Source: Streptomyces sp. CC0208
GTDB taxonomy: Bacteria > Actinomycetota > Actinomycetes > Streptomycetales > Streptomycetaceae
Length of the DNA stretch: 64,000 bases
Reading direction: 5' to 3'
Assembly (NCBI RefSeq): GCF_003443735.1
Contig: NZ_CP031969.1
Location: 5,394,001 to 5,458,000, forward strand
The position numbers and the translations under genes were made by a program. Position 1 is the stretch's first letter, and every line of letters begins with the position of its first letter. The notes beneath the pieces were generated by a model. It did not search any database, was not told the origin of the DNA, and was given only the letters and a program-made list of their open reading frames with translations. Below, piece by piece: positions 20,012 through 30,110 of this stretch.

Positions 20012-20833
20012 TCAGGCGGCGGCCTTCGGCTGCGGCTTCGCCTTGTCCGGGCCGCCCGTGAAGTCCTCGTAGGCTGCCAGGACCTCGTCGGTGGGGCCGT
20101 CCATGCGCAGTTCGCCGCGCTCCAGCCACAGCACCCGGTCACAGGTGTCGCGGATCGACTTGTTGCTGTGGCTCACCAGGAACACCGTGCCCGCGTGCTT
20201 GCGGAGCTCGCGGATGCGCTGCTCGGAGCGCTTCTGGAAGGAGCGGTCGCCGGTGGCGAGGGCCTCGTCGATGAGGAGGACGTCGTGGTCCTTGGCGGCG
20301 GCGATGGAGAAGCGCAGGCGGGCCGCCATGCCGGAGGAGTAGGTGCGCATCGGGAGGGTGATGAAGTCGCCCTTCTCGTTGATGCCGGAGAAGTCGACGA
20401 TCTCCTGATAGCGGTCCCTGACCTGCTCGCGGGACATGCCCATGGCGAGGCCGCCGAGGTGGACGTTGCGCTCGCCGGTGAGGTCGTTCATCAGGGCCGC
20501 GTTGACGCCGAGGAGGGAGGGCTGGCCGTCGGTGTAGATCCGGCCGTTCTCCACCGGGAGCAGACCGGCGACCGCCTTGAGCAGGGTCGACTTGCCGGAG
20601 CCGTTGGTGCCGATGAGGCCGATCGCCTCGCCCTTGTAGGCGACGAACGACACGTTCTTGACGGCGTGCACCTTGCGTACGCCCGCCGCCTTCTCGACCT
20701 GCCCCCGGCGCAGCATGCGGTTGAGGGCGGCGGTGGCGGAGCCCTTGCCGGCGCCGGTGCCGTTGACGCGGTAGACGATGTCGACGCCGTCCACGACGAC
20801 GGTGGGGATCTGGTCGTTCTCGATGTCAGCCAC
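20012..20833 (-). CDS. Polysaccharide/teichoic-acid-type ABC exporter, ATPase subunit
   Basis: The 273-residue protein has Walker A IGTNGSGKSTLLK, signature YSSGMAARLRFS, Walker B VLLIDEALATGD and the H-loop in LVSHSNKS. The N-terminal region (VNGTGAGKGSATAALNRMLRRG before AVKNVSF) is the variable loop seen in TagH/Wzt-like exporter ATPases, so it probably energises export of an undecaprenyl-linked cell-wall polymer. It starts with GTG, and its first 8 nt overlap the permease gene, showing tight coupling. It lacks the long C-terminal substrate-binding domain of Wzt. The nearby galE and CDP-glycerol-type transferase make a teichoic-acid-like polymer the likely cargo. Confidence 0.9.
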   Translation of the reverse strand: MADIENDQIPTVVVDGVDIVYRVNGTGAGKGSATAALNRMLRRGQVEKAAGVRKVHAVKNVSFVAYKGEAIGLIGTNGSGKSTLLKAVAGLLPVENGRIYTDGQPSLLGVNAALMNDLTGERNVHLGGLAMGMSREQVRDRYQEIVDFSGINEKGDFITLPMRTYSSGMAARLRFSIAAAKDHDVLLIDEALATGDRSFQKRSEQRIRELRKHAGTVFLVSHSNKSIRDTCDRVLWLERGELRMDGPTDEVLAAYEDFTGGPDKAKPQPKAAA

Positions 20834-21743
20834 GGCCGTACGTCTCCTCAGCCTTCCAGAAGTAGATGAAGCCGCCGACGCCGGCGACCAGCGCCCAGCC
20901 CACCGCGATCGCCCACACGTGGTGCGGCAGCTGACTGGCGTGGAAGCTGTCGATCAGGGAGTAGCGCATCAGGTCGATGTAGATGGCGGCCGGGTTGGCC
21001 TGGAGGACGGGCACCACCCAGGACGGCCAGTCGTGGTGGCCCTTGGCCAGCTTGTCGATGCTCCACATCACGCCGGAGACGTACATCCAGGTGCGCAGGA
21101 CGAACGGCATCAGCTGCGCGATGTCCGGCGTCTTGGCACCCATCCGCGCCATGATCATCGAGACGCCCGCGTTGAAGACCGACTGCAGGACCAGTGCCGG
21201 GACCGCCAGCAGCCAGGAACTGGCGATCGGGACACCGAAGCAGAGCAGGATGACGACCAGGGCGGCCATCGAGAACAGCAGCTGCTGGAGCTGCTGGAGG
21301 GCGAACGAGATCGGCAGCGCGGCCCGCGGGAAGTGCAGGGCGCGCACGAGGCCCAGGTTGCCGGAGATCGCCCGGGTGCCCGCCATGATCGAGCTCTGCG
21401 TGAACGTCCAGATGAACACGCCCGTGACCAGGAACGGGACGTAGTCCGGCACATTCCTCTTCGTGCCCAGCAGGACGCCGAAGATGAAGTAGTAGACCGC
21501 CGCGTTCAGCAACGGGGTCATCACCTGCCAGACCTGACCCAGCTTCGCCTGGCTGTACTGCGCGGTGAGCTTGGCGGTCGAGAACGCGGTGATGAAGTGG
21601 CGCCGTGCCCACAGCTGACGGACGTAGTCGGGCAGGGAGGGGCGGGCGCCGCTGACCGTCAGGCCGTGCCGGGCGGCCAGGGCCGAGAGGTCGTCGTCGG
21701 CCGGGGACGCTGTCGGGGGCGGTGTGTCGAGGACCTGGCTCAC
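20826..21743 (-). CDS. ABC-2-type polymer exporter permease (TagG/Wzm-like)
   Basis: This 305-residue membrane protein has about six hydrophobic segments, starting near residue 65 (LLNAAVYYFIFGVLLG) and ending with AIAVGWALVAGVGGFIYFWKAEE, in the TagG/Wzm arrangement. The cytoplasmic N-terminal helix includes RHFITAFSTAKLTAQYSQAKLGQVWQVM, typical of O-antigen/teichoic acid exporters that have a coupling helix there. GTG 21743 is chosen because the sequence further upstream lies in the regulatory region and antisense to the TetR gene. No strong ribosome-binding site is visible. It forms an operon with the ATPase and is divergent from the TetR gene across a repeat-rich region. Confidence 0.88.
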   Translation of the reverse strand: MSQVLDTPPPTASPADDDLSALAARHGLTVSGARPSLPDYVRQLWARRHFITAFSTAKLTAQYSQAKLGQVWQVMTPLLNAAVYYFIFGVLLGTKRNVPDYVPFLVTGVFIWTFTQSSIMAGTRAISGNLGLVRALHFPRAALPISFALQQLQQLLFSMAALVVILLCFGVPIASSWLLAVPALVLQSVFNAGVSMIMARMGAKTPDIAQLMPFVLRTWMYVSGVMWSIDKLAKGHHDWPSWVVPVLQANPAAIYIDLMRYSLIDSFHASQLPHHVWAIAVGWALVAGVGGFIYFWKAEETYGRG

Positions 21744-21813: not shown

Positions 21814-21841
21814 TTACGTGACTCTTTACGTTCTCTTACGT
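21814..21841 (+). promoter_or_regulatory. Three phased TTACGT motifs upstream of the exporter genes
   Basis: TTACGT occurs at 21814, 21826 and 21836, spaced 12 and 10 bp, about one helical turn each, ~70-100 nt upstream of the permease GTG. The even phasing suggests a protein-binding or promoter element distinct from the longer repeats next to it. Meaning unknown. Confidence 0.4.
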
Positions 21842-22063
21842 CGGGACGGGACCGTATCGTCGCAACGTGAGAGTAGGACGATTCAGCGTCGGAACGCAAC
21901 CGTTTCGTCGTGACGAGCGACGTTGGAACGTAACCGTTTCGTCGTGACCTGTCACGTTGGAACGTAACCGTAGCGTCGTGGCGTGCCGTCGTGGTGTGCG
22001 CCGTCGCGTCGATACGGCTCCGTCGCGGCCACCCGCGTCGGAACGGGACCGTTTCGTCGCTAC
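21839..22063 (+). promoter_or_regulatory. Array of five operator-like repeats between exporter and TetR gene
   Basis: Five related 24-28-bp units start at about 21839, 21887, 21921, 21955 and 22036. The shared core is GGAACG-N4-CGTTTC, an imperfect inverted repeat, usually followed by GTCGTGAC; the first and fourth copies are degenerate in the right half. The second to fourth copies are exactly 34 bp apart. The last ends 18 nt before the TetR ATG. The palindromic core and the position in a divergent promoter region fit multiple binding sites for the adjacent TetR regulator, controlling both itself and the exporter. That it is bound by this regulator is inference. Confidence 0.65.
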
Positions 22064-22080
22064 GCCCTATGCTGGTCCGC

Positions 22081-22707
22081 ATGACGACCAACGCCGACGC
22101 GCCGCAGACCCCTACGCGCCGCCGTGCCCCGGCAGGAGCCGCCGTACTCCGTGAGGATGTGACGGAAGCCATTCGGGCGGCCGTCTTCGAGGAGCTCGCG
22201 GCCTCCGGATACGCGCGGATGTCGATCGAGGGCATCGCACGTCGGGCGGGCGTGGGCAAGACCGCGGTCTACCGCCGTTGGCGTTCCAAGCTGCATCTGG
22301 TCCTCGACGTCGTGTCGGAGATCGCGGTGATGGGTCTGCCGGTGCCGGAGACGGGCTCGCTGGAGGACGACCTGCGGATGCTGTACGAGGTGACCTCCCG
22401 GGCGCTGCGGCACCCGGTGGCCTCGCAGATCATCCCGGACCTCCAGGCCGAGGCGGCCCGTAACCCCGAGATCGCCGAGGCCCTGCAGAACGCGTTGCAG
22501 AAGGGCCAGGAGGGTGTCGCCAGCAAGATCATCACGGCGGCGGAGCGGCGCGGGGAGCTCCGCACCGGCTTCAACGACGAACTGGCCCTCGACCTGATCT
22601 CCGGCCCCCTGTACTGGCGCTCGGTGGTGATCCGGAGCCCGAAGCTGCCGAAGGGGTATCTCGCGGCGCTGGCCCGGGTGACGACGGAGGCGCTGAAGGC
22701 GCTCTGA
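22081..22707 (+). CDS. TetR-family transcriptional regulator
   Basis: The 208-residue protein has the TetR helix-turn-helix at residues ~40-65 (MSIEGIARRAGVGKTAVYRRWRSK) and an all-alpha ligand domain resembling the TetR_C_11-type group (ISGPLYWRSVVI). It is divergent from the cell-wall polymer exporter across the operator-like array, so autoregulation and control of the exporter are likely. The ATG 22081 start gives a normal-length protein; the preceding in-frame codons lie inside the repeat array. The ligand is unknown, perhaps a polymer intermediate or envelope-active compound (speculative). Confidence 0.88.
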   Translation: MTTNADAPQTPTRRRAPAGAAVLREDVTEAIRAAVFEELAASGYARMSIEGIARRAGVGKTAVYRRWRSKLHLVLDVVSEIAVMGLPVPETGSLEDDLRMLYEVTSRALRHPVASQIIPDLQAEAARNPEIAEALQNALQKGQEGVASKIITAAERRGELRTGFNDELALDLISGPLYWRSVVIRSPKLPKGYLAALARVTTEALKAL

Positions 22708-22816: not shown

Positions 22817-23764
22817 TCAGCCGGTGAAGGGACAGCCGGTGAGGAGAAGGGTGAGGGCAGCCAGGTCGGCCGCCCTCAGCACCCGGTCGGCGAAGCCCGG
22901 CAGCGGGACATGCAGGGGTGTCGTCCAGCGCTCCGGGACGGCCGTGACGCCGTACACCGCTCCGGCCAGGCCGCCCGTCACCGCGGCCACTGTGTCCGTG
23001 TCGCCGCCCAGGTCGATCGCAGCGCGTACGGCTGTCTCGTACGAGGTCGTCGTACGCAGCGCCCAGACGGCGGAGCCCAGGCAGGGCCATACGGCACCGT
23101 TGAACTCCGTGGCCTGGTCCGGGTGCCAGTCGGGGGCCAGGACGGTGGCGTAGCGTCCGCGGTGGTCTTCGTGGACCGCGTCCAGGGTGGCTTCCACGGC
23201 GTCCAGCGGGTCGTCGCCGGCCAGGGCCACTCGTACCAGTTCGTGGAAGACGGCCGTGCCCTCCCAGGCCGCCCGGTCGCCGTGGGTGAGGGCGGCCAGG
23301 CGGCGGCCGGCGGACATGGTGGCCTCGCGGCCGTGGGCAGCGAAGTACACGGCGGACGGGACCGCCCGCATCAACGCGCCGTTTCCCGCCGCCCGTTGGC
23401 TCACCTGGAAGTGGAGAGCGGCGGCGCTGTCCCAGGGGTCGCCGCTGCTCAGTACGGCCTCGGTCTGAAGGCCGATGTCCTTCGGCTCCGCCGCCGCCCA
23501 CCGCTGGAACCGCCGGAAGACGTCCGGGAGTTCGAGCCCACCGCACTCCACCAGGGACTCGGCGACCAGGACCGCCATCTGTGTGTCGTCGGTCGCCTCA
23601 CCCGGCTCCCAGCCGCCACCCCCGCACATCTCGCCGCCGTGCCCGGGCTCCGGAAAGCGGTCCGAGAAGGCACCTTCCGGCCCGAACTCGAAGGGGGCAC
23701 CCAGCGCGTCCCCCGCAGCGGAACCGACGACGGCGCCCAGGGCGCGCTCTGCGCGTACGACCAT
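22817..23764 (-). CDS. ADP-ribosylglycohydrolase family protein
   Basis: The 315-residue protein has all three metal-ligand patches of the DraG/ARH fold: GDALGAPFEFG near the N-terminus, GEATDDTQMAVLVAE (~residues 55-70), and DLGGDTDTVAAVTGGLAGAVYG (~255-275). Family enzymes use two Mg ions to remove ADP-ribose from proteins (Arg-linked in DraG) or to hydrolyse ADP-ribose derivatives. Target and regulation cannot be inferred. It starts with ATG and is convergent with the TetR gene. The repeat-rich gap upstream holds its promoter. It appears complete, with normal length. Confidence 0.9.
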   Translation of the reverse strand: MVVRAERALGAVVGSAAGDALGAPFEFGPEGAFSDRFPEPGHGGEMCGGGGWEPGEATDDTQMAVLVAESLVECGGLELPDVFRRFQRWAAAEPKDIGLQTEAVLSSGDPWDSAAALHFQVSQRAAGNGALMRAVPSAVYFAAHGREATMSAGRRLAALTHGDRAAWEGTAVFHELVRVALAGDDPLDAVEATLDAVHEDHRGRYATVLAPDWHPDQATEFNGAVWPCLGSAVWALRTTTSYETAVRAAIDLGGDTDTVAAVTGGLAGAVYGVTAVPERWTTPLHVPLPGFADRVLRAADLAALTLLLTGCPFTG

Positions 23765-24382: not shown

Positions 24383-24796
24383 CTACTCGATGACGAGGTC
24401 GACCTCGATGTTGCCGCGGGTGGCGTTGGAGTAGGGGCAGACCTGGTGGGCCTGCTCGACGAGCTTGCGGCCGGTCTCCGCGTCCACGGAGTCGGGCAGC
24501 TCGACGCGGAGGGCGACCTTGAGGCCGAAGCCCTCGCCCTGCTTGCCTATGCCGACCTCGGCGGTGACGGCGGCGTCGCTGACGTCCACCTTGGCCTGGC
24601 GGCCGACAAGACCGAGGGCGCTGCCGAAACAGGCGGCGTAGCCGGCGGCGAACAGCTGCTCCGGGTTGGTGCCCTGTCCGTTGCCGCCCAGCTCCACCGG
24701 CGGGGCCAGAGCGACGTCGATCTTGCCGTCGTTCGTGTAGGCGCGGCCGTCGCGGCCGTGGGTGGCGGTGGCGACAGCGGTGTAGAGCGCGTCCAT
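24383..24796 (-). CDS. ohr: Organic hydroperoxide resistance protein Ohr
   Basis: The 137-residue OsmC/Ohr-family thiol peroxidase has the peroxidatic Cys in AGYAACFGSAL (residues ~55-65) and the resolving Cys in HQVCPYSNATRGN near the C-terminus. The typical start ALYTAVATATHGRDGRA is present. It reduces organic hydroperoxides, with lipoylated proteins as reductant in characterised members. ATG 24796 gives the standard length. It is divergent from ohrR across a 120-bp region with a palindromic operator, so peroxide-inducible expression is expected. Confidence 0.95.
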   Translation of the reverse strand: MDALYTAVATATHGRDGRAYTNDGKIDVALAPPVELGGNGQGTNPEQLFAAGYAACFGSALGLVGRQAKVDVSDAAVTAEVGIGKQGEGFGLKVALRVELPDSVDAETGRKLVEQAHQVCPYSNATRGNIEVDLVIE

Positions 24797-24867
24797 GAAA
24801 ACCGTCCCTCTCGAAGTTCGTTCCGGCGGCTCTTCCGCGGCCGCCTCACGGCCGTAAGTAGAGCACA

Positions 24868-24878
24868 CAATTCAATTG
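24868..24878. promoter_or_regulatory. Probable OhrR operator
   Basis: CAATTCAATTG is a perfect 11-bp A/T-rich palindrome in the ohr-ohrR divergent gap, standing out in a G+C-rich genome. OhrR regulators of the MarR family bind A/T-rich inverted repeats of this kind. It lies 39 nt before ohrR and 72 nt before ohr. Confidence 0.7.
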
Positions 24879-24916
24879 CGCACAACTAAATGGCTCGCAA
24901 GGGCTATCCTGGACGC

Positions 24917-25402
24917 ATGGACACGTCCCCGGCCACCACCGACTGGCTCCGCCTCGACCAGCAGATCTGCTTCTCCCTGAACGCGGCCTCCCGCGCCTTC
25001 GGCAGCGTCTACCGCGTGATCCTCAAGGACCTGGGGATCACTTACCCGCAGTACCTGGTGATGCTGGTGCTGTGGGAGCACGGCGATCTGCCGGTCAAGA
25101 AGCTCGGCGAGCACCTGCGGCTCGACTCGGGCACCCTCTCCCCGCTCCTCAAGCGACTGGAGGCGGCCGGCCTCGTCCGGCGCGAGCGCAGCGCCCGCGA
25201 CGAGCGCTCGGTGGAGGTGCGGCTCACCGAGGAGGGCGTCGCCCTGCGCGAGCGCGCGGAGCGGGTGCCCCGCCGGATCGTCTCAGCGACCAGTTTCGAC
25301 GTGGACGAGATCAGCGCCCTGCGGGCCCGCCTCGACCAGCTCACCTCGGCCCTGGACGCGGCGGTGCACGCCGAGCTGCCCGACGAGGACTTCAGCCGGT
25401 GA
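24917..25402 (+). CDS. ohrR: MarR-family peroxide sensor OhrR
   Basis: The 161-residue winged-helix regulator carries the N-terminal reactive Cys in QQICFSLNAASRAF (residue ~16), the peroxide-sensing thiol in one-Cys and two-Cys OhrR proteins. The tyrosine-containing segment YRVILKDLGITYPQYLVML follows, and the wing includes SARDERSVEVRLTEEG. Oxidation of Cys by organic hydroperoxide releases OhrR from DNA and derepresses ohr. ATG 24917 is chosen; ATG 24890 would add nine residues and lies closer to the operator. Divergent pairing with ohr supports the role strongly. Confidence 0.92.
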   Translation: MDTSPATTDWLRLDQQICFSLNAASRAFGSVYRVILKDLGITYPQYLVMLVLWEHGDLPVKKLGEHLRLDSGTLSPLLKRLEAAGLVRRERSARDERSVEVRLTEEGVALRERAERVPRRIVSATSFDVDEISALRARLDQLTSALDAAVHAELPDEDFSR

Positions 25403-26802: not shown

Positions 26803-29061
26803 CTAACGGGTCTCGGTGACGGGCGTGTGCGTCGCGGGGCGGGGGACGGTGGCCAGCGGGGAGCGGTCGAGCGCTGCCGCCGCCGACGGCACCGGGTGGC
26901 GCTCCGCGAGCGGCACCACGGCCGGCGACCCGGACTCGCCCAGGACGACATGGCGTACGACGCGTTCGGCGGCGCGGCCGTCGTCGTAGGGGCAGAAGCG
27001 TTCGCGGAAAGCCGACCGCAGCTGGGTGGAGCGGGAGCCGCGCCAGTGGCCGGTGGCGAAGATGTCGATCAGTTCGTCCTCGTTGCGCGCGACCGCGCCC
27101 GGCGCGAAGGACCGCAGGTCGAAGTAGGTGCCGCGGGCCGCCTCGTACGCCTCACGGTCGTCGGCGTGGATCACGATCGGGCGGTCCAGGTTGGCGTAGT
27201 CGAACATCAAGGACGAGTAGTCGGTGACCAGGGCGTCCGAGGCCAGACACAGGGACTCGACGCTCGGGTGGTCGCTGACGTCGATGACCCGGCCGGTCGC
27301 GGGGGAGACGAGCGGGCCGCCGTGGCGGTGGTGGGCGCGGGCCAGCACGACGAAGCGGGGGCCCAGACGGCGCAGGACGCGGTCCAGGTCGAGGGTGGTG
27401 CGCTGGGTGCGGCGGTAGTCGCGGTGGGTGGGCGCGTACAGGATCGCCACCGAGCCCTCGGGGACGCCCAGGGACTCGCGCAGGCGCCGTACGTCCTCCG
27501 AAGTGGCCCGCTGGAACACGTCGTTGCGGGGATAGCCGTAGGGGAGCGTGGTGTAGCGGCCGGGGTAGACCCGCTCCCAGGTCAGGGTGGTGTGGCGGTT
27601 GGGGGACAGGAGGTAGTCCCACTGGTCGACGCCCCTCAGCATCGCCTCGAAGTCCACGTCCCCTGCCGCCGCCGGGCGTTCCTGGAGGTCCAGGCCCATG
27701 TGCTTGAGGGGCGTGCCGTGTTGGGTCTGGACGAGGACCTGGCCGGGGCGCTTGACCAGGCGGCGGTCGAAGTCGGTGTTGTCGACGAGGTACTTGGAGC
27801 GGGCCAGCGCCGTCCAGTAGGCAGCCGTGCCCGGGCGCAGCCTGAGGGTGGCCGTCGGGATGGTGTGGTGGTGCTCGGGACGGGCGATCCACGCGGTGCG
27901 GATGTGCGGGGCGAAGGTGCGGAACGCCTCCTCCAGCGCGCCCGGGTTGCAACTGTGGCCGCGGCCCCCGTACGCGGCGAAGACGGCACGGTCCTCGCGC
28001 AGCGGGAGGCGGAGCTGGACGCGGTAGTGGAGCCGGAGGGCCACCGCGTGCAGGGACTTGGCGAGGCGTACGACCGGGCGGGCGGTCCGGCGGCCGAGGC
28101 TCAGGGCCAGTTCGGTGAGCCGTTGGGTGCGGTAGAGGCCCAGGCGGATCACGGTGTGGCGCAGCCGGGAGCGCGCCGGGACCGGGTGGCCCGGGACGCG
28201 GTGGGCGCGGTAGTGGTCGCGGGCCCGCCGCAGGAACTCGGCCCGGGTGCCGTGCGGGAGGCGGTGCCGGTCGGTGAACACCGCCGAGAGGTGGTCCACC
28301 ATGAGGCGGAACAACACCGGCCGCCACCGGGCGAGTTCGGGGCGCGCGTCGATGTGTGCGAAGACCCTGTCGTACTGGTCGAAGAGGTCGAAGTGGCCGG
28401 CCGCGTCGGGGAGTTCGCCTCCGCGGTGCCGCCGGTGGTGGACGCAGACGCGGTCCAGGGTGGCGATCGACTCGGCGGCCGTCAGGGCCGGGTAGGTCCA
28501 GGGCAGGTCCGTGTGGTGACCGGGCGGGAAGGTGAGACCCGCACGCTCGACGAACTCCCTGCGGTACGCCTTGTTCCAGGCCACCGAACGCACCCGCAGC
28601 AGCCCCGGACGGTCCTCCAGGCGGAACGGCGCCGGGCCCCGCTCGGTGAGCCGGCCCGCGAAGGCGTCGCGGACGCTCTCGCCCGACCAGTGGACGAGCG
28701 CGTGGTCGTGGACCAGGACGTCCGGCTCGCCGGTCTCCTTCAGCCGGTCGGCGATCGCCCGCAGCGCGTGCGGGGCGAGGGTGTCGTCGCCGTCGAGGAA
28801 CAGCAGGTAGTCGCCGCTCGCCTCGGCCGTCCCGGCGTTGCGGGCGGGACCGAGTCCCGCGTTCTGCGCCAGGTGGACCGCCCGGACCCGTGGATCACGG
28901 GCCGCGAACTCGTCGACGATCTCGCCGCACGCGTCCGGCGAGCGGTCGTCGACCGCGATCAGCTCCAGATCCTCGTACGACTGTGACAGCACCGATTCCA
29001 GGCACGCCGGCAGGTACGCCTGAACCTTGTACGCGGGGACGATGACACTGAACCTGGGCAC
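26803..29061 (-). CDS. GT2 glycosyltransferase / CDP-glycerol glycerophosphotransferase fusion
   Basis: The 752-residue two-domain cytoplasmic enzyme begins with a GT-A (GT2) domain, residues 1-~220: PRFSVIVPAYKVQAYLPACL, VDDRSPD and the metal-binding LFLDGDDT. The C-terminal domain (~380-720) is TagF-like: TQHGTPLKHMGLDLQ, YAPTHRD and the conserved VTDYSSLMFDYA near ~660. TagF-type enzymes polymerise poly(glycerol phosphate) from CDP-glycerol; the fused GT2 domain probably adds sugar or starts the chain. The GTG start begins exactly at the GT2 motif. With galE and the TagGH-like exporter it suggests wall teichoic acid synthesis. Confidence 0.9.
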   Translation of the reverse strand: MPRFSVIVPAYKVQAYLPACLESVLSQSYEDLELIAVDDRSPDACGEIVDEFAARDPRVRAVHLAQNAGLGPARNAGTAEASGDYLLFLDGDDTLAPHALRAIADRLKETGEPDVLVHDHALVHWSGESVRDAFAGRLTERGPAPFRLEDRPGLLRVRSVAWNKAYRREFVERAGLTFPPGHHTDLPWTYPALTAAESIATLDRVCVHHRRHRGGELPDAAGHFDLFDQYDRVFAHIDARPELARWRPVLFRLMVDHLSAVFTDRHRLPHGTRAEFLRRARDHYRAHRVPGHPVPARSRLRHTVIRLGLYRTQRLTELALSLGRRTARPVVRLAKSLHAVALRLHYRVQLRLPLREDRAVFAAYGGRGHSCNPGALEEAFRTFAPHIRTAWIARPEHHHTIPTATLRLRPGTAAYWTALARSKYLVDNTDFDRRLVKRPGQVLVQTQHGTPLKHMGLDLQERPAAAGDVDFEAMLRGVDQWDYLLSPNRHTTLTWERVYPGRYTTLPYGYPRNDVFQRATSEDVRRLRESLGVPEGSVAILYAPTHRDYRRTQRTTLDLDRVLRRLGPRFVVLARAHHRHGGPLVSPATGRVIDVSDHPSVESLCLASDALVTDYSSLMFDYANLDRPIVIHADDREAYEAARGTYFDLRSFAPGAVARNEDELIDIFATGHWRGSRSTQLRSAFRERFCPYDDGRAAERVVRHVVLGESGSPAVVPLAERHPVPSAAAALDRSPLATVPRPATHTPVTETR

Positions 29062-29150
29062 GGCACATCCAAGGGTCGGCGCGGGCGGTCTGCCCGGGAA
29101 CGCCCCACGGCGGCGCGGGGTTACGGTCCGTACGGCATTCGGGCGAACGC

Positions 29151-29182
29151 GAGGGGGCGGGCCGGTGCCGGCCCGCCCCCTC
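29151..29182. terminator. Terminator of the first sugar ABC operon
   Basis: A perfect 15-bp inverted repeat (GAGGGGGCGGGCCGG and its complement around TG) lies 19 nt beyond the last gene of the minus-strand operon. Confidence 0.8.
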
Positions 29183-29201
29183 AATCGGGCTGTCCCACGC
29201 G

Positions 29202-30110
29202 CTACTTGACCGCGCCCGCCATCACGCCGGACACGAACTGCCGCTGGAACGCGAAGAACACGATCAGCGGAATCACCATCGAGATGAACGCGCCCGGTGC
29301 CAGGACGTCGACGTTGTCGGCGAAGGCACGCATCTGGGTCTGCAGGGCGACCGTGATCGGCTGGCTGTCGGCGTCCGTGAACACCAGCGCGATCAGCATG
29401 TCGTTCCACACCCACAGGAACTGGAAGATGCCGAGGCTCGCGATCGCGGGCCCGCCGAGCGGCATCACCACCCTTGCGAACAGGCGCAGTTCACCCGCGC
29501 CGTCGAGCCGTGCCGCCTCCAGGAGTTCGCGGGGGATCTCCGCGAAGAAGTTCCGCAGCAGGAACACCGCGAACGGCAGGCCGAAGCCCACATGGAAGAG
29601 GATCACTCCCAGGATGTTGCCGAACAGGCCGATCTTGCCGAAGAGTTCGGCGATCGGGATCAGCGCCACCTGCACCGGCACCACCAGCAGACCGACCACG
29701 CCCATGAACCACCAGTCGCGGCCCGGGAACTCCATCCACGCGAACGCGTAACCCGCGAGCGCGCCGATGACGATGACCAGGAGCGTCGCCGGGACCGTGA
29801 TCAGGATGGTGTTGACGATGGAGTGCGTGATGTCGCTGTTCTGCAGGAGCTTCTGGTAGCTGTCGAGGGTGAGCTGGGACGGCTCGCTGAAGACCTTCCA
29901 CCAGCCGCTCGCCGTGAGGTCCTCCGGGCTGCGCAGCGAGGAGATCAGCAGCCCGATCGTCGGCACCAGCCAGAACAGGCCGACGACCACGAGGAGGACG
30001 CTGATCAGGCCGCCGCTGACGCGCTCGACGAGCCGTGAGCCGAGCGACTGCTTCGCCTTCGCCCTGTCCGCCGGTGCCGTCTCGGGAAGCCTTTCGGCCT
30101 GAGTGGTCAT
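29202..30110 (-). CDS. Sugar ABC transporter permease, MalG-type
   Basis: This 302-residue permease has six predicted membrane helices. The cytoplasmic EAA loop reads EIPRELLEAARLDGAGELRLFARVVMPLGGP, which docks the ATPase, and the C-terminus QRQFVSGVMAGAVK is typical of carbohydrate (CUT1) permeases. It overlaps the upstream permease by 4 nt (ATGA), showing translational coupling. No ATPase gene is in the operon; in Streptomyces the shared MsiK ATPase encoded elsewhere usually serves such importers (inference). ATG 30110 is chosen from the overlap. Confidence 0.92.
   Translation of the reverse strand: MTTQAERLPETAPADRAKAKQSLGSRLVERVSGGLISVLLVVVGLFWLVPTIGLLISSLRSPEDLTASGWWKVFSEPSQLTLDSYQKLLQNSDITHSIVNTILITVPATLLVIVIGALAGYAFAWMEFPGRDWWFMGVVGLLVVPVQVALIPIAELFGKIGLFGNILGVILFHVGFGLPFAVFLLRNFFAEIPRELLEAARLDGAGELRLFARVVMPLGGPAIASLGIFQFLWVWNDMLIALVFTDADSQPITVALQTQMRAFADNVDVLAPGAFISMVIPLIVFFAFQRQFVSGVMAGAVK

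Follow-up and report, generated by a model that had tools for sequence, protein, structure and literature searches.

Judged from their sequence, the five repeats in the intergenic region between tagR and tagG are most plausibly operators for the TetR-family repressor encoded divergently at 22081, and the locus is very probably where TagR, as a dedicated repressor, controls the teichoic-acid exporter genes tagGH. The repeats are real, and they are mostly part of a control system that has already been described; what is new is the definition of the TagR operator, the geometry of the promoters and an array that varies between lineages, multi-operator TetR regulators and cooperative binding to long sites being already known. 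The window, by which we mean the whole 64-kb stretch analysed (C1:5394001–5458000), belongs to a single-contig genome of 9.32 Mb, for which the closest named relative found is S. canus 299MFChir4.1 (99% TagR identity). In it, tagG and tagH are divergent from tagR across an intergenic region of 337 bp, and the gene downstream of tagR is convergent with it. The features of the locus are given below in their order along the window, with the conservation of promoter elements counted over the 109 loci that have two or more sites.

20012–20833, minus strand: tagH, ATP-binding subunit of the exporter, TagH/TarH-like
20826–21743, minus strand: tagG, ABC-2 exporter permease (ABC2_membrane; Wzm/RfbD-like), with a predicted GTG start at 21743
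21839–21867, plus strand: operator A, 16/16 key positions, conserved in relatives, covering the predicted tagG transcription start
21870–21875, minus strand: predicted tagG −10, TACTCT, in the A–B spacer; TACGCT or TACTCT in 101/109 relatives, the offset being almost constant
21887–21915, plus strand: operator B, 16/16 key positions, containing the predicted tagG −35
21894–21899, minus strand: predicted tagG −35, TTGCGT, within B, with an 18-bp spacer to the −10; in the same place in 104/109 relatives
21921–21949, plus strand: operator copy C, 15/16 key positions, 34 bp after B
21955–21983, plus strand: operator copy D, 15/16 key positions, 34 bp after C, the lowest profile score of the five
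22002–22030, plus strand: degenerate sixth copy, a probable relic, matching 12/16 key positions and lying 34 bp ahead of E, in register with it
22036–22064, plus strand: operator E, 16/16 key positions, tagR-proximal, adjoining the tagR −10 on its upstream side
22068–22073, plus strand: predicted tagR −10, TATGCT; after the proximal operator in 104/109 relatives
22081–22707, plus strand: tagR, TetR-family repressor gene, 208 aa

The original prediction had assigned the gene at 22081 to the TetR family by inference, with an exporter of a cell-wall polymer opposite it. The family assignment is borne out by the Pfam domains TetR_N and TetR_C_11, and the exporter is of the teichoic-acid type, with a TagH relative as its ATP-binding subunit and the repeats lying over the shared promoter region. 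The top PDB match of the tagH product is B. subtilis TagH (7dd0, E = 1e-54), TarH (6jbh) also being matched; against the NCBIfam TagH model the product gives E = 1.6e-52, yet it stays under the cut-off of that model. The surroundings fit teichoic-acid biology, since a CDP-glycerol glycerophosphotransferase gene lies nearby (at about 26803–29415, minus strand), and a second tagG copy, 71% identical to that of the window, is present at C1:1164470.

In S. roseosporus, according to the portion of PMC10269677 available to us, TagR binds the shared promoter, giving multiple EMSA bands and at least two footprints with a 182-bp probe, and represses tagGH, which is up by 4.5–6.2 log2 on tagR deletion; the deletion also raises osmotic tolerance and daptomycin yield, and reporter work found tagR autoregulation to be positive, not negative. 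Set beside that portion of the report, the window likewise has a TetR-family gene divergent from tagG–tagH with a convergent next gene, several sites in the shared promoter (here five putative ones, defined by sequence) and a second tagGH pair elsewhere, whereas it differs in having five operators and a relic in 337 bp. By gene order and product we take the window system to be the TagR–tagGH system published for S. roseosporus, and the two TagR proteins are proposed to be orthologues on the strength of gene order, product, size (206 versus 208 aa) and family. The slot of the 'hypothetical protein' in the S. roseosporus report is held here by an ADP-ribosylglycohydrolase gene (22817–23764), which is convergent with tagR.

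All five copies, each a 24-bp unit, lie where they had been predicted, with their first bases at 21839, 21887, 21921, 21955 and 22036 (successive steps of 48, 34, 34 and 81 bp), and the proposed 34-bp period holds for those at 21887, 21921 and 21955. The core said to be shared by all of them, GGAACG-N4-CGTTTC, is exact in three copies (at 21891, 21925 and 22040), but those at 21839 and 21955 each depart from it twice. As a descriptor this 16-bp core is weak, since with up to three mismatches it is no commoner in the 64-kb window than expected by chance (68 observed, 71 expected). In pattern searches of the whole genome, the exact core occurs five times, three of them in the tagR–tagG intergenic region, and the 24-bp unit, at three mismatches or fewer, six times, five of them in that region and the sole match outside it, with three mismatches, at C1:1941821. 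The longer unit stands well clear of chance: profile scores were 30–43 for the five copies, compared with 9.6 for the next best elsewhere in the window and 1.4 for the top-scoring of 300 shuffled versions of the intergenic sequence, although they are partly circular because the profile, drawn from relatives, also contains the five copies.

The original prediction would have failed had the core been abundant across the genome, unrelated to this regulator; the 24-bp site is instead nearly confined to the locus and tracks the TagR gene. A TagR orthologue is present in 47 of the 61 Streptomyces genomes compared (E ≤ 6e-62, a cut-off fixed only once the best E-values had shown a gap from 6e-62 to 5e-43), and the operator in its 24-bp form, searched for with a pattern derived from the TagR orthologue loci, was present in 47/47 genomes with the orthologue and in 0/14 without it (Fisher p = 4e-14, a nominal value because the genomes are related). 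Nearly all operator matches across the genomes sit directly upstream of tagR, and the data indicate that TagR is dedicated to one locus. For control of the second tagGH pair, the search of the genome gave no match beyond that with three mismatches at C1:1941821. A near-match in three relatives (e.g. G049:C1:1200072 and G007:C1:4092620), considered as a second regulon target, was rejected as incidental because it falls within a sensor-kinase coding frame. One exact short core, GGAACGTCACCGTTTC, precedes a GTG-start reading frame at C1:6218871 (about position 1501 of L005), there without the 24-bp flanks.

From 281 sites at 108 loci, the conserved element is 29 bp long, CGTN4ACGN2AC-N-GTN2CGTN4ACG, and has two overlapping dyads with centres at base 15 and base 12.5, the latter being the palindrome of the original prediction. 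Its length and two dyads recall, as a resemblance only, the dimer-of-dimers operators of CprB and QacR (22–32 bp, partly palindromic; PMC4150764), and it has the length that marks this operator class (sites of about 22 bp or longer, often imperfect palindromes). The conserved layout comprises two operators, A and B, 48 bp apart, and the A–B spacer is 24 bp (the 48-bp step) in 95/109 loci. Promoter elements and starts of both tagG and tagR are predictions from conservation, among them a tagG start near 21862 on the minus strand and a leaderless tagR transcript from about 22081, predicted because the ATG lies only 7 bp past the putative −10. S. roseosporus has a published m4C 9 bp before its tagR gene; should the two sequences agree at that point, the modified base would be the C of the tagR −10 TATGCT, and could then tie methylation to tagR expression.

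We propose that TagR would bind the partly symmetric 29-bp site, that A and B, when occupied, would stop RNA polymerase from using the tagG promoter, with its −35 inside B and its start under A, and that a further site, adjoining the tagR −10 on its upstream side, would let the protein act on the promoter of its own gene. The tagR −10 directly follows B in most relatives, so that B would there serve both promoters. In the lineage of the window, repeat units would have been inserted between B and the tagR promoter, and therefore the two promoters would no longer share one operator, C, D and the relic lying between. We infer which promoter each site controls, and extra copies would chiefly alter the amount of TagR bound by the region, not the basic switch. 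The published positive autoregulation counts against the model, for it is not what an operator next to the tagR −10 would readily lead one to expect.

The number of sites varies widely among relatives: across 110 loci there are two in 60, three in 16, four in 18, five in eight, six in five, seven in two and one in a single, truncated locus. Loci with three to seven sites make up 49 of the 110, a sample that is enriched for close relatives and has a few genomes doubled (L035/L116, L033/L123); in a genus-wide draw of 30 loci, themselves the best-scoring, six have three or more, and the 34-bp tandem pair was found in 11/393 genomes. In loci of typical layout the extra copies occupy the stretch from B to the tagR-proximal site; L054 and L055 are arranged differently. 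Upstream of tagR, L055 has related sites at −265, −218, −171 and −124 (a 47-bp step) and then at −72, an array probably separate in origin from the 34-bp arrays. A quick tree of TagR DNA, with many weakly supported branches and with the direction of change not readable from it, has at least 13 switches from a two-site array to a larger one or back; the breadth of the two-site form suggests that two sites are the ancestral state.

What the extra copies do is a sub-question of the TagR reading. That C and D are functional, providing the stronger, cooperative or graded repression originally proposed, we rate at somewhat less than an even chance. Extra sites recur across many lineages, the first extra unit is kept in 7/7 members of the window's clade, and cooperative binding by TetR-family proteins is known for CprB and QacR (PMC4150764). 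The middle copies are, however, weaker and more variable, with a median profile score of 29.9 compared to 39.7 for A, 42.6 for B and 38.5 for the proximal site, and with mismatches at 7.0% of key positions compared to 1.9%, 0.8% and 0.5% respectively (and at 16.3% of other positions in the middle copies). Because choosing middle copies by a score threshold favours intact key positions, we also compared units by position, those 34 (or 35) and 68 (or 69) bp after B in the window's clade. Changes avoid key positions in both the first extra unit (7/112 key versus 14/91 other positions, p = 0.04) and the second (11/96 versus 20/78, p = 0.02), p values that are nominal for such related sequences, and the counts may be taken as weak signs of constraint. 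Also unfavourable to function are the several middle copies that are relics, the presence of only two sites in 60/110 loci and a spacing out of helical phase: 34 and 48 bp correspond to about 3.2 and 4.6 turns (10.5 bp per turn), so that neighbouring sites would not lie on one face of the DNA.

Tandem duplication could instead have produced the extra copies, which would then be nearly neutral and drift within a spacer where insertions are tolerated; on this we find the evidence evenly balanced. Copy numbers of two to seven with the repeated changes on the TagR tree, relics such as that at 22002–22030 here, units 3–4 in L061 and late units in L085 and L096, and long site-free insertions in the same spacer (e.g. 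270 bp in L038) all point to drift, whereas first extra units change less at key than at other positions and the proximal site remains intact. Compared with S. canus, the window has near-identical sites, while its linkers differ at 14/115 positions; copy D has one base difference, gapped in the alignment. Our own reading is that A, B and E would be the switch, with C and D bindable but less essential. More speculatively, and in our view rather unlikely, operator copy number at tagR–tagG could be a fast-evolving dial that sets, species by species, the amount of TagR that repression of the exporter requires, gain or loss of repeats parting two promoters that ancestrally shared one operator.

That a factor other than TagR binds the repeats, be it another TetR protein or a sigma factor, and that tagR just happens to lie next to them, is highly improbable. 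A similar core, AACGNNACCGTT, does occur before another TetR-like gene of the genome (C1:5163091), and related regulators may therefore have similar sites; yet the perfect co-occurrence with TagR, the near-confinement to the tagR intergenic region and the direct TagR binding at the equivalent promoter, as given in the available part of PMC10269677, all argue for TagR itself. As to sigmaE control, the few gene names tried (SCO2996–2998 and tagF) gave no match in the sigmaE regulon paper. Two inverted CGAACGAnACCGTTTCG copies lie just before another TetR-like gene (C1:5163091 and 5163142; about 1500–1570 of L028). The core is again similar, and related TetR regulators may thus share recognition and could cross-talk.

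Arrays of several operators are on record among divergent TetR-family genes. One or two sites per TetR gene had been presumed the norm; in the portion of PMC3511530 consulted, S. coelicolor SCO7222 and ActR have three operators each and give three EMSA shifts, so that more than two sites are not exceptional per se. Like the window, both are divergent TetR-family regulators with multiple operators between genes; they differ in their operators (TGGAACGNCGTTCCA; ACCGTT-type) and targets, and that portion contains no mention of variation in operator copy number between species. Tn10 tetA–tetR, as described there, similarly has two operators, O1 and O2, for two divergent promoters, but these are 15 bp long and form no array. 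A literature search with limited terms returned nothing on the evolution of operator copy number in TetR regulators. Likewise, the TagR operator definition, the promoter geometry and the variable copy number were not found in the literature searched, which took in part of the text of PMC10269677.

A precise operator is now given for a regulator with an osmotic-tolerance and daptomycin-yield phenotype in S. roseosporus. Moreover, the natural series from two to seven operators, with a closely similar protein and the same promoter core, is suited to measuring the effect of operator number on repression. Elsewhere in the window, at 24383–25402, an Ohr-type peroxiredoxin gene is divergent from a MarR-family gene, an arrangement that resembles an ordinary OhrR–ohr pair.
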